DNA from: Coriobacteriaceae bacterium
GTDB taxonomy: Bacteria; Actinomycetota; Coriobacteriia; Coriobacteriales; Coriobacteriaceae
Assembly (NCBI GenBank): GCA_030525945.1
Contig: JAUNDT010000002.1
Coordinates: 124,001-188,000 of the forward strand
Length of the DNA: 64,000 nt
Direction: 5' to 3'
Shown here: positions 3,112 through 31,672 of the stretch, in pieces
How positions within the stretch are numbered: the first letter of the stretch is position 1
Layout: each line of letters begins with the position of its first letter
Made by a program: the position numbers and the translations under genes
Notes under the pieces: model-generated
What the model saw: only the letters and a program-made list of their open reading frames with translations
Databases searched by the model: none
What the model was told of the DNA's origin: nothing

Positions 3112-4643
3112 TGGGCGCGTCTTCCACAACGTTTTCGGTTCATGCCGCCTGTATTCGAGGTGTGGAGGCCTTTTCGGTCACGGTTGAGGTGTCGGCTTCG
3201 GGGTCCATCCCCGGTCTTTCAATTGTGGGTATGGCGGATGCTGCCGTGCTTGAGGCCCGCAGCCGCATTCGATGCGCGCTGCGCTCGGGCGGATTCGATG
3301 TGCCCCGCAGCGCGCTGACGGTCAGCCTGGCTCCCGGGGACATCCGAAAGACGGGATCCGGTCTCGATCTTCCCATCGCCCTGGCGATCCTGGCCCTTTC
3401 CGGTCAAATTCCCTTGAAGGGCCTTGACGACTGCCTGTTCGTCGGCGAGCTTGGGCTGGACGGCTCGGTGAGCGGGTGTAAAGGCGAAATTGCCTATCAG
3501 GTGCTTGCGCGCGATCAGGGGCTTTCATTTGTCGGTGGATCTTCCCAGGCTTCCGTTTCGTTGTCTGGTGTGCGCACTGGCTGCATCGAGCACTTAGAGA
3601 ACATGCGACTAGGCGTGGAGGCCGCCTTGAGGCCACTTTCTGAGGGCCACGTAAAGCCTGCGCGACGTCGTCCGATTCTCGACTTCGGGGACGTGGTCGG
3701 TCAGGAGGTCGCCAAGCGCGGCATCGCCGTTGCGGCCACGGGCGGGCTCGGACTTTTAATGGTGGGGTCGCCCGGGTCGGGAAAATCCATGCTCGCCCGG
3801 CGTATCACGGGCATTCTGCCGCCCATAGACGAGCGCGAGCAGCAGGAAGCGCTTTGTATCCACTCGGTTGTCGGCGAGCCAATCGAGGGTATTCTCGAGG
3901 GCGAGCGCCCCTTTAGAAGTCCCCATCACAGCATTTCGACTCCGGGGCTTGTGGGCGGTGGACGTCCTGTTCGCCCGGGTGAGATCAGCCTTGCGCACGG
4001 TGGGGTGCTTTATCTCGATGAGCTTGCCGAGTTTTCGAATCAAACGCTCCAAACCTTACGCCAGCCTCTCGAAGACGGTTCTGTCCGTATCGTTCGTGTG
4101 GACGGCTCCTACGTTTTTCCCGCACGGTTCCAGCTTGTCGCCGCGAGTAATCCATGTCCATGCGGGTATTTGGGCGATCGCGAAATCGCGTGTAAGTGCT
4201 CGGATGCGTCGATTGAGCGCTATCGGGCAAAGCTCGGCGGCCCCTTGGCGGACCGCATAGATTTGATTTTGCATATATCACGCCCGGATCCCGAGTTGAT
4301 TGTCCAAGGTGGCGAAGGGCAGACGACTGCCGATTTGAAAGAGCAGGTTGAGAGGGGAAGGGATTTTTGCGCGTGGAGAACGCGCGTTCAGTCGATTGAC
4401 GATGAGGACGGTGGGGATGAGCCATCGCTTGATTCCGCGGTGTCCCAATACCAGCTGGATGAATCGGGCAGGACGCGGCTCATCGACATATCTCATCGCA
4501 ATAACCTCACCGCGCGCGGAATCGTTCGGCTTTGCCGGATAGCCCGAACCATCGCCGACATGGCCGAGTCTGAGCGAGTAGGCGCAATTCACGTGCTCGA
4601 AGGAGCGCAGCTGCAGGGGAGGAGGGGCAATGATTGCGTGTGA
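3111..4643 (+). CDS. comM: ComM/YifB family Mg-chelatase-like AAA+ ATPase
   Basis: 510 residues from the ATG at 3111, which overlaps the yraN TGA by one base (TGATG); a GTG one codon earlier is possible. The N-terminal S5-like/LonC-like domain has SIPGLSIVGMADAAVLEARSR, the ATPase core has Walker A GSPGSGKSMLARRI, then PHHSIS, GGVLYLDELAEF and FQLVAASNPCPCG, and the C-terminal helical domain has the family's ARGIVRLCRIARTIADM. In naturally competent bacteria ComM is a hexameric helicase promoting branch migration during recombination of transforming DNA (family knowledge). Adjacent dprA supports a shared DNA-processing role. Confidence 0.93.
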   Translation: MGASSTTFSVHAACIRGVEAFSVTVEVSASGSIPGLSIVGMADAAVLEARSRIRCALRSGGFDVPRSALTVSLAPGDIRKTGSGLDLPIALAILALSGQIPLKGLDDCLFVGELGLDGSVSGCKGEIAYQVLARDQGLSFVGGSSQASVSLSGVRTGCIEHLENMRLGVEAALRPLSEGHVKPARRRPILDFGDVVGQEVAKRGIAVAATGGLGLLMVGSPGSGKSMLARRITGILPPIDEREQQEALCIHSVVGEPIEGILEGERPFRSPHHSISTPGLVGGGRPVRPGEISLAHGGVLYLDELAEFSNQTLQTLRQPLEDGSVRIVRVDGSYVFPARFQLVAASNPCPCGYLGDREIACKCSDASIERYRAKLGGPLADRIDLILHISRPDPELIVQGGEGQTTADLKEQVERGRDFCAWRTRVQSIDDEDGGDEPSLDSAVSQYQLDESGRTRLIDISHRNNLTARGIVRLCRIARTIADMAESERVGAIHVLEGAQLQGRRGNDCV

Positions 4644-26750: not shown

Positions 26751-28201
26751 CGAGCTTTGAACTTGAATGCGACGGGCTGAGCGGGGGCGCCGCAGGTGGC
26801 AACTCGGCTCTGCAGGCCCCGACCGTTCCCGCGTATGCCTCCACCACGGCCCCCTACGGATCGCTTGCCCCCCAGACAGGGGAAGGCGCTCTCGTTGTCT
26901 CCGTGGCTCCGGAGTCTCCCGCGGACGACCTCGGCATCGAGCCCGGCATGCGCATTCTGACTGTCAATGCCCAACCGCTGACCGACATGATCGTGTGGAT
27001 GTGGGAGAGCGACGGCGATGCGGTCGACATCGAGGTGTATGACCCGCGCGACAACACCGTGACCCCTGCCGTTCTCGAGCGCTTTCCGGGCGAGGAATGG
27101 GGCCTCGAGTTCGACGGTGCCGTGTTTGACGGCATGCGTACCTGCGTGAACGCCTGCGTGTTCTGCTTTATGAACATGCTTCCCAAAGAGAGCCGCAGCA
27201 CGCTCACCATACGCGATGACGACTACCGCTTGAGTTTTTTGCAGGGCAATTTCGTCACGCTCACCAATATGAGCGATGCCGAGGTTGATGACGCGATCGA
27301 CAAGATGCTCTCTCCCATGAACGTGAGCCTGCATGCCATCACTCCGGAGTGTCGGCGCAAGCTCATCGGCCGCAACGCGCCGCGCGGTATCGAAGTGCTT
27401 GAGCGCTTCTTGGACGCGGGTATTGAGATCCATGCGCAGATTGTGCTGTGCCCGGGTTTGAATGACGGTGACGAGCTCCTTGCAACCCTTCAGTATGTGG
27501 AGGCGCACCCCGGCATCACCAGCCTGGCGATCGTCCCCCTGGGCTTTACCAGGCACCAAAAGCGTTTCAGCTCGTCCTACTCCAGCGACATTGAGGCGTC
27601 GCGCTCGGTCGTGCGCATGCTCGAGCCGTTCCAAGAGCGGGCGCGTGCCACGCGAGGGGCCACGGTTTTCCAGCTTGCCGATGAGTTCTACATCGATGCC
27701 GATTTGCCCGTCCCACCTGCGGAAACCTACGACGGCTTCCCGCAGTTTTACGACGGCATCGGGATGCTGAGGAGCTTTCTCGACGAGGTCGACGAGCTTA
27801 AAGGGGCACGCTCGGGTGATGTTGACGCCGTGGCCACGCGACTGGCGCGTGAGGGCGGTCGCGTCCTTGTTATTTGCGGTGAAGCCGCGCAAAGCACCTT
27901 CGACGCGTTTTGCCGGCTATTCGACCCCGCAGGAATCGTCTCGTCTCTTGCGATCCAAAACGACTACTTCGGCGGCAACGTGAACGTGACTGGCCTCATC
28001 TGCGCCTGTGACCTGCTTGCTCAGCTGCCCCGCGACCTCTCGAGCACGACGGTTCTCATTCCCGATGTGATGTTCAACTACGACTACCTGACCCTCGACG
28101 GCGTCTCCAAGCAGTCCATCACCGACGAGATCGAGCGCCGCGGCGCCGCTGTACGCTACGCGACCCCCGCCCCCAACCTGATGCTCGACGCACTTCTCTG
28201 A
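26747..28201 (+). CDS. DUF512 radical-SAM-like protein with N-terminal PDZ domain
   Basis: 484 residues from the ATG at 26747, four bases inside ispH. After about 45 poorly conserved residues comes a PDZ-like domain (VVSVAPESPADDLGIEPGMR, ILTVNAQPLTDMI), then a radical-SAM type cluster CVNACVFC (Cx3Cx2C), then MNVSLHAITPE and VLCPGLNDGDELLATL. The C-terminal DUF512 half includes IVPLGFTRHQ and DEFYIDADLPVP. The family sits beside der in many Firmicutes and Coriobacteriia and has no established function; a link to ribosome or tRNA biology is only a guess from context. Confidence 0.88.
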   Translation: MTSFELECDGLSGGAAGGNSALQAPTVPAYASTTAPYGSLAPQTGEGALVVSVAPESPADDLGIEPGMRILTVNAQPLTDMIVWMWESDGDAVDIEVYDPRDNTVTPAVLERFPGEEWGLEFDGAVFDGMRTCVNACVFCFMNMLPKESRSTLTIRDDDYRLSFLQGNFVTLTNMSDAEVDDAIDKMLSPMNVSLHAITPECRRKLIGRNAPRGIEVLERFLDAGIEIHAQIVLCPGLNDGDELLATLQYVEAHPGITSLAIVPLGFTRHQKRFSSSYSSDIEASRSVVRMLEPFQERARATRGATVFQLADEFYIDADLPVPPAETYDGFPQFYDGIGMLRSFLDEVDELKGARSGDVDAVATRLAREGGRVLVICGEAAQSTFDAFCRLFDPAGIVSSLAIQNDYFGGNVNVTGLICACDLLAQLPRDLSSTTVLIPDVMFNYDYLTLDGVSKQSITDEIERRGAAVRYATPAPNLMLDALL

Positions 28202-28202
28202 C

Positions 28203-28494
28203 CCGACCGCCCCGGGACCTGCGCATATCATCCCGTGCTCAAACAGCGCTGCACTTGCCTGCGCGCGGGACGATATGCTCCAGGGACAGGGCTGCGTATA
28301 TCGGGCACGAAATGCGTCATTTAGGGTCAGACCCTAAATGACGCATTCTTCTGTGTTGGCAGCTCCTGGGGCCGGAGCGCATCGTCCCGCGCGCAGTTCC
28401 GCACGAGCCGGAGGCCACTTAACGTGGCCTCCGTGCGAGCAGGACTGTTTGAGCACGGGATGATGCGCGCAGGGCCCAGGGGCGGGGCGGTCAG
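28203..28494. repeat. Nested palindromic non-coding element of about 290 bp
   Basis: This gene-free stretch between the DUF512 gene and der is built from nested inverted repeats. Outer arms: about 45 bp with gaps, including the 20-base block ATCATCCCGTGCTCAAACAG (28227-28246) exactly complementary to 28445-28464, plus a GACCGCCCC/GGGGCGGTC pair at the ends. Second layer: TGCGCGCGGGACGAT (28260-28274) complementary to 28381-28395. Core: a 37-bp palindrome (28311-28347). A side hairpin GGAGGCCAC/GTGGCCTCC lies at 28410-28432. It could be a MITE-like mobile element, a structured RNA or a terminator complex; no coding sequence is evident. Confidence 0.8.
28311..28347. repeat. 37-bp perfect palindrome, copy 1
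   Basis: AATGCGTCATTTAGGGTC (28311-28328), a single central A, then its exact reverse complement (28330-28347). The same sequence in inverted orientation (central T) occurs at 31635-31671, so it is a dispersed repeat rather than a chance hairpin. Confidence 0.9.
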
Positions 28495-31633: not shown

Positions 31634-31672
31634 AAATGCGTCATTTAGGGTCTGACCCTAAATGACGCATTT
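31634..31672. repeat. 37-bp palindrome, inverted copy 2 (possible bidirectional terminator)
   Basis: AATGCGTCATTTAGGGTC (31635-31652), central T, exact complement (31654-31671); one further A-T pair extends it to 31634/31672. It is exactly the reverse complement of copy 1 at 28311-28347. In RNA it would fold to a stem of about 17 bp with a short TCTGA-type loop, followed by only TTT, so termination is possible but unproven. Confidence 0.88.

Follow-up and report, generated by a model that had tools for sequence, protein, structure and literature searches.

The question raised by this locus is what kind of element occupies the intergenic gap between the stop codon of a DUF512/radical-SAM gene (position 28201) and the start of der (28588), where about 290 bp of DNA fold onto themselves in several layers. 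Positions refer to the window, that is, the whole analysed stretch of 64,000 nucleotides; the closest named relative found in searches is Collinsella stercoris, with 84% identity of the DUF512 protein and 83% identity of the DNA. The original prediction offered three readings of the region: a MITE-like mobile element, a structured RNA produced along with the DUF512 transcript, or a protein-bound cruciform. The pairing that it described is present in the sequence. The outer layer (28227-28246 against 28445-28464) pairs perfectly, the second layer (28260-28274 against 28381-28395) can be extended by one pair, 28259/28396, the central palindrome (28311-28347) is perfect over its 37 bp (18+1+18), the side hairpin is formed as well, and no coding content is seen in the folded region. 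The folding energy of the 306-nt region is -219.7 kcal/mol, compared to -129.1 +/- 5.7 kcal/mol in 100 dinucleotide shuffles of the same region, none of which was as good as the native sequence (z -15.9), in agreement with the claim that the folding exceeds chance.

Although real, the layers do not testify separately to a single structure: the region contains two units of one dispersed repeat, placed in inverse orientation, and this is why the outer and second layers match perfectly. The search for dispersed copies yielded 102 local matches in the host genome (G000), including three further composites, and the alignment of the four composites resolves three dispersed modules, a truncated ("short") hairpin unit, the palindrome REP38, and a complete ("long") hairpin unit in the opposite orientation (Table 1). 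The short form is found also at C20:189654, C20:118829, C23:180484 and C1:1149 of the same genome. Folded separately, the short-unit half yields -46.6 kcal/mol, the long-unit half -92.3 kcal/mol, and REP38 -26.0 kcal/mol; as each half folds alone, the giant fold need not form. The 290-bp element is, almost certainly, a mosaic of dispersed repeats and not one purpose-built structure. Further copies and covariation (see below), which according to the original prediction a chance or decayed structure would lack, were both clearly found. Such a structure, devoid of family relations, can practically be dismissed, being already refuted by the z-score, the dispersed copies and the two-sided covariation.

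Table 1. Modules, motifs and ends of the folded region, and the other REP38 copy of the window
Feature	Coordinates	Strand	Basis or remark
Truncated (short) hairpin unit; no side hairpin, core and arms as in the complete unit	28207..28295	+	Profile match 28220-28281
REP38 palindrome, RAYT-type REP/TIR	28309..28348		Copies of the centre and position around the Y1_Tnp gene
Complete (long) hairpin unit, opposite orientation	28359..28485	-	Covariance-model match 28373-28472 (111.4 bits); profile match 28374-28470 on the - strand
Side hairpin of the complete unit	28407..28436	-	Fold and pair counts
Conserved core motif GTGCGGAACT of the unit	28395..28404	-	Near-invariant columns
Conserved core motif ACAGTCCTGCTCGCACG of the unit	28432..28448	-	Near-invariant columns
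Left end of the composite, CGACCGCCCC	28204..28213	+	Homology of the four composites starts here
Right end of the composite, GGGGCGGTCAG; matches the left end in inverted orientation	28484..28494	+	Homology of the four composites stops here
Second REP38 copy of the window	31634..31672		4 nt past the stop codon of a gpsA-like gene

The hairpin unit was described by a covariance model built from 18 copies and containing 34 base pairs, 22 of which have changed on both sides. The core is near-invariant, the arms of 20-40 bp differ between copies, and the stem of the side hairpin differs in sequence among copies as well, with changes on both sides. Hairpin units are non-coding intergenic repeats whose core is conserved and whose arms are variable and self-complementary. 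In G000, the model yields 34 matches of at least 58.7 bits, plus weaker ones, and units are found in 39 of 58 genomes, G000 included. Throughout the Coriobacteriales, matches at E <= 1e-6 were observed in 138 of 297 genomes and 34 of 107 genera (in this survey, a per-genome count of 13 means at least 13); the E-values are rough, and since the palindromic model also matches its own reverse strand with up to about 44 bits, weak matches in distant genera should be read with caution. In a copy from a different family of this order (L191), the core is kept and the arms differ. Two Collinsella genomes (G001 and G026) have neither a unit match nor a Y1_Tnp match. The relatives compared are species representatives, many of them drafts, and three contigs (G010:C58, G061:C14 and G061:C37, corresponding to L502, L506 and L519) start or stop inside hairpin units, so that the repeats appear to break short-read assemblies.

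The unit does not coincide with a known family. Rfam yielded no match, either for the window at the gathering cut-off or for five unit loci at E <= 0.1, and a known Rfam RNA family is rejected on this basis. No exact match to the core was seen in viral contigs, and there was no phage match; the sole "plasmid" hit is an 899,693-bp C. aerofaciens record, the same size as contig G007:C6. Apart from this record, the phage and plasmid searches yielded no copy, and a phage- or plasmid-borne element is rejected. In the open-licence papers searched, the repeats were not found described for Collinsella or Coriobacteria. A second, unrelated hairpin family, GACATATT.CCGTAGGGTGT...ACACCCGAGGGAATTATGTC, likewise has variable outer arms; it occurs in G000 near a REP38 copy, within L058, and fills the DUF512-der gap of C. 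intestinalis (L062, after position 3877). One hairpin unit, in L157 (1066-1446), has about 35 bp of perfectly matched arms and adjoins the RNase P RNA gene.

The 11-bp centre of REP38, GGGTCAGACCC, generally sits within AAAATGCGTCATTTAGGGTCWGACCCTAAATGACGCATTTT and has 41 copies in G000 (1.88 Mb), the reversed control having none. There is only one Y1_Tnp gene in this genome, a 249-aa ORF (L141, 1117-1866), and REP38 copies at 1077-1117 and 1927-1966 of the same locus lie just outside both its ends. Since REP38 bounds the sole Y1/RAYT gene on both sides, it is assigned to the RAYT-type REP/TIR sequences; it very probably belongs to the resident RAYT (Y1, HUH-type) transposase, which would have mobilised it. 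The arrangement, a short palindrome with ~40 copies placed at both ends of the Y1 gene, is the same as in REPtrons and TIRtrons, and REP38 contains GGGTCAGAC, which is close to the GGGGWSAS motif of TIRtrons (PMC2817692, PMC3733652). No GTAG end tag was seen in REP38, and GCGTC is situated inside the stem and is not unpaired; according to the RAYT literature, TIR-type palindromes need no tag (PMC2817692, PMC3733652). Coriobacteria are not named in PMC3733652. REP38 is a dispersed, high-copy, extragenic palindrome: the 30 copies read in context are mostly beside stop codons, and according to gene predictions many copies in the genome, including the second copy of the window, are only a few bases from a stop codon. 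The location downstream of genes is as in RAYT-associated REPs and TIRtrons (PMC2817692, PMC3733652), and its occurrence directly after stop codons suggests a preference in placement.

The hairpin unit is a family separate from REP38. It has no sequence relation to RAYT-associated REPs and TIRtrons, exceeds them in length, and is found also where there is no RAYT match: neither G033, with 28 units, nor G005, with 12 units, has a Y1_Tnp match. Therefore it is not simply an element of the RAYT, and its mobilisation by RAYT is not supported, given these two unit-rich genomes.

The same sites were compared between strains in three 400-kb syntenic segments of C. aerofaciens-group genomes, which are about 93.5% identical. 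At the first site, different strains carry different paired arm blocks. The second site contains a 389-bp two-unit insert, missing in G014. When alleles of other genomes were added, the first site showed several arm haplotypes and the second at least four, nearly all of them matched within the allele. One arm at the second site, CCCTTTTGCTATTCCCGGCGGG, repeats in inverted orientation the DNA immediately to the right of the insert, and G014 has that DNA as well. Further unit loci (n=100) formed 17 flank groups, 16 of them with at least two loci. At another site, each of the 15 genomes whose locus is intact has the unit; the arms are of two quite different types, and in G058 the core is flipped between the arms of one of these types. 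At a further site, the unit is found in five genomes, and in 13 genomes there is a short interval only, with a small hairpin where this interval was read, the absence of a unit at a locus depending on the profile used. G058 also has mosaic arms at two sites; as both mosaics and the sole inversion come from this one genome, an assembly error in the palindromes is possible. Given the two genomes with no match and the 13 genomes lacking the unit at one site, no site is essential.

The suggestion of a MITE-like element was the closest of the three, inasmuch as the composites at four loci share their ends (CGCCCCG...CGGGGCGGTC), have a RAYT REP/TIR at the centre and consist of dispersed units, but the region is two repeat families combined in a mosaic and not one MITE. 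Like bacterial MITEs, the repeats are non-coding, 70-300 bp long, dispersed and strongly folding. The sites lacking the unit in relatives are consistent with an ordinary MITE-like element, that is, the composite or the unit being mobilised by a transposase through recognition of its ends, and so is the direct repeat CCGCCGG (7-8 bp) that bounds the 389-bp insert and is present as a single copy in G014. However, the site in G014 could be a deletion between short direct repeats and not an empty site, and RAYT is missing from two unit-rich genomes. Moreover, as the unit arms differ between copies, a transposase would have no common terminal repeats to act upon, and a search covering the Y1_Tnp family revealed no autonomous partner of the unit. 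In these two respects the hairpin unit differs from bacterial MITEs, and an ordinary element of this type seems unlikely.

At the four loci, the short unit on the plus strand, REP38, and the long unit on the minus strand alternate in a BIME-like manner, and further inverted unit pairs were observed. As in BIMEs, two inverted units have other repeat modules between them. Unlike BIMEs, the composites combine two unrelated families, and the unit arms are variable, with only the core conserved. The repeats of a BIME are REPs of one RAYT system, whereas the units are unrelated to REP38 and RAYT-independent.

The units are intergenic and closer to the 3' ends of genes than to their starts. Between co-directional genes, seven are in the sense and 13 in the antisense orientation, the gene context being derived from a home-made codon score. 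Among 30 der gaps scanned in the genus, a unit is present only in this genome and in C. stercoris, and the arms of the two are different. That a structured RNA is produced along with the DUF512 transcript is not supported, given this small number of loci and the absence of a consistent gene orientation; a der leader or a DUF512-linked RNA is rejected, as few relatives have the unit there. The lack of a fixed orientation and the presence of the unit at two of 30 der loci argue for a DNA-level repeat over a fixed-strand RNA. As for intrinsic terminators, no T-run follows the units, and only the REP38 hairpin resembles a terminator, weakly so.

The next issue is whether the arms are kept complementary. 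Outer-arm differences between alleles were sorted at 13 sites, including cluster 2: 1076 pair-cells showed mirrored changes, 338 a one-sided change that still pairs, 495 a one-sided change that breaks the pair, and 104 other patterns. These numbers refer to allele pairs and not to events; the unit structures were derived from the same alignments as the pair counts. With cluster 2 left out, since it mixes two sites, variable pairs at the remaining 12 sites are Watson-Crick in 78% of cells, against 63% when the right arms are shuffled among alleles, and about five of the 12 sites pair at the shuffled level only. The arm divergence is 0.130, and that of the neighbouring intergenic DNA is 0.119, with the arms higher at only five of 12 sites, so the general statement that arms evolve faster than flanks is rejected. 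Overall, complementarity of the arms is maintained above chance, while the data alone do not separate templated correction from selection.

Selection might act on an RNA. If the unit were a structured RNA or a 3'-UTR element, such as a terminator, an RNase barrier or a protein-binding RNA, selection on its fold would keep the arms paired and the core conserved. The strong two-sided covariation, the conservation of the internal core, the position nearer to gene 3' ends and the mean arm divergence, which does not exceed that of intergenic DNA, all agree with this explanation. On the other hand, the antisense units outnumber the sense ones, within the genus the units are not attached to a constant set of genes, one strain has a flipped core, neither an Rfam match nor a T-run after the units was seen, and between strains both arms are replaced as whole blocks. 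We consider an RNA-level role of any of these kinds doubtful.

In our estimation, the chances are about even that template switching, and not selection on a structure, is what keeps the arms matched. This mechanism is preferred because of the mosaics, the inversion, the replacement of arms as whole blocks, and the published precedents (PMC8604942, PMC8794818). Template switching homogenises the arms of inverted repeats and inverts spacers (PMC8604942), and it creates and maintains hairpins (PMC8794818). In the case of the units, recombination between strains across the conserved core would swap one arm and thus yield mismatched arms; at replication, the nascent strand would fold back at the hairpin, and one arm would be copied onto the other, restoring complementarity. 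Switching of this type could also flip the core and lengthen the stem by copying neighbouring DNA in inverted orientation. The units resemble template-switch-corrected quasipalindromes (PMC8604942, PMC8794818, PMC7202029) in that arm changes are matched, whole blocks change and one core is inverted. These reports deal with single loci, with yeast or with RNA genes, whereas here the process is suggested for a repeat family at many orthologous loci. The best overall explanation is probably a mosaic of repeats with a RAYT-linked REP38 and with arms re-matched by template switching.

A further possibility, which we regard as rather unlikely, is that the units spread or renew themselves by fold-back copying, the end of the hairpin priming synthesis on its own flanking DNA. 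This would explain arms that are particular to the site and yet self-complementary, and it is consistent with the single site at which an arm copies the adjacent host flank in inverted orientation. If it does operate, it would be transposition or renewal without conserved ends.

The units may also be compared to functional DNA hairpins. A protein-bound cruciform or a nucleoid-organising DNA site, as proposed for REP and BIME elements, would fit repeats that are indifferent to orientation, intergenic, dispersed and conserved in the core, but no bound protein is known and no site is essential, and we consider such a role very unlikely. Integron attC sites are hairpins conserved in structure and variable in sequence, with conserved ends and a variable interior. 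The units are similar to them in having conserved structure and variable sequence. Unlike attC sites, they have variable outer arms and a conserved inner core, and no cassette arrays are seen at the loci read.

In summary, the hairpin repeat is new to the databases and papers searched and is present in many related gut bacteria, while REP38 is of a known kind. The repeats provide strain-level polymorphism. If the arms are indeed kept matched by template switching, the units would offer many orthologous loci in common gut bacteria as a natural series for watching this process. It would also caution that mutation alone can produce covariation, the usual proof of RNA structure.
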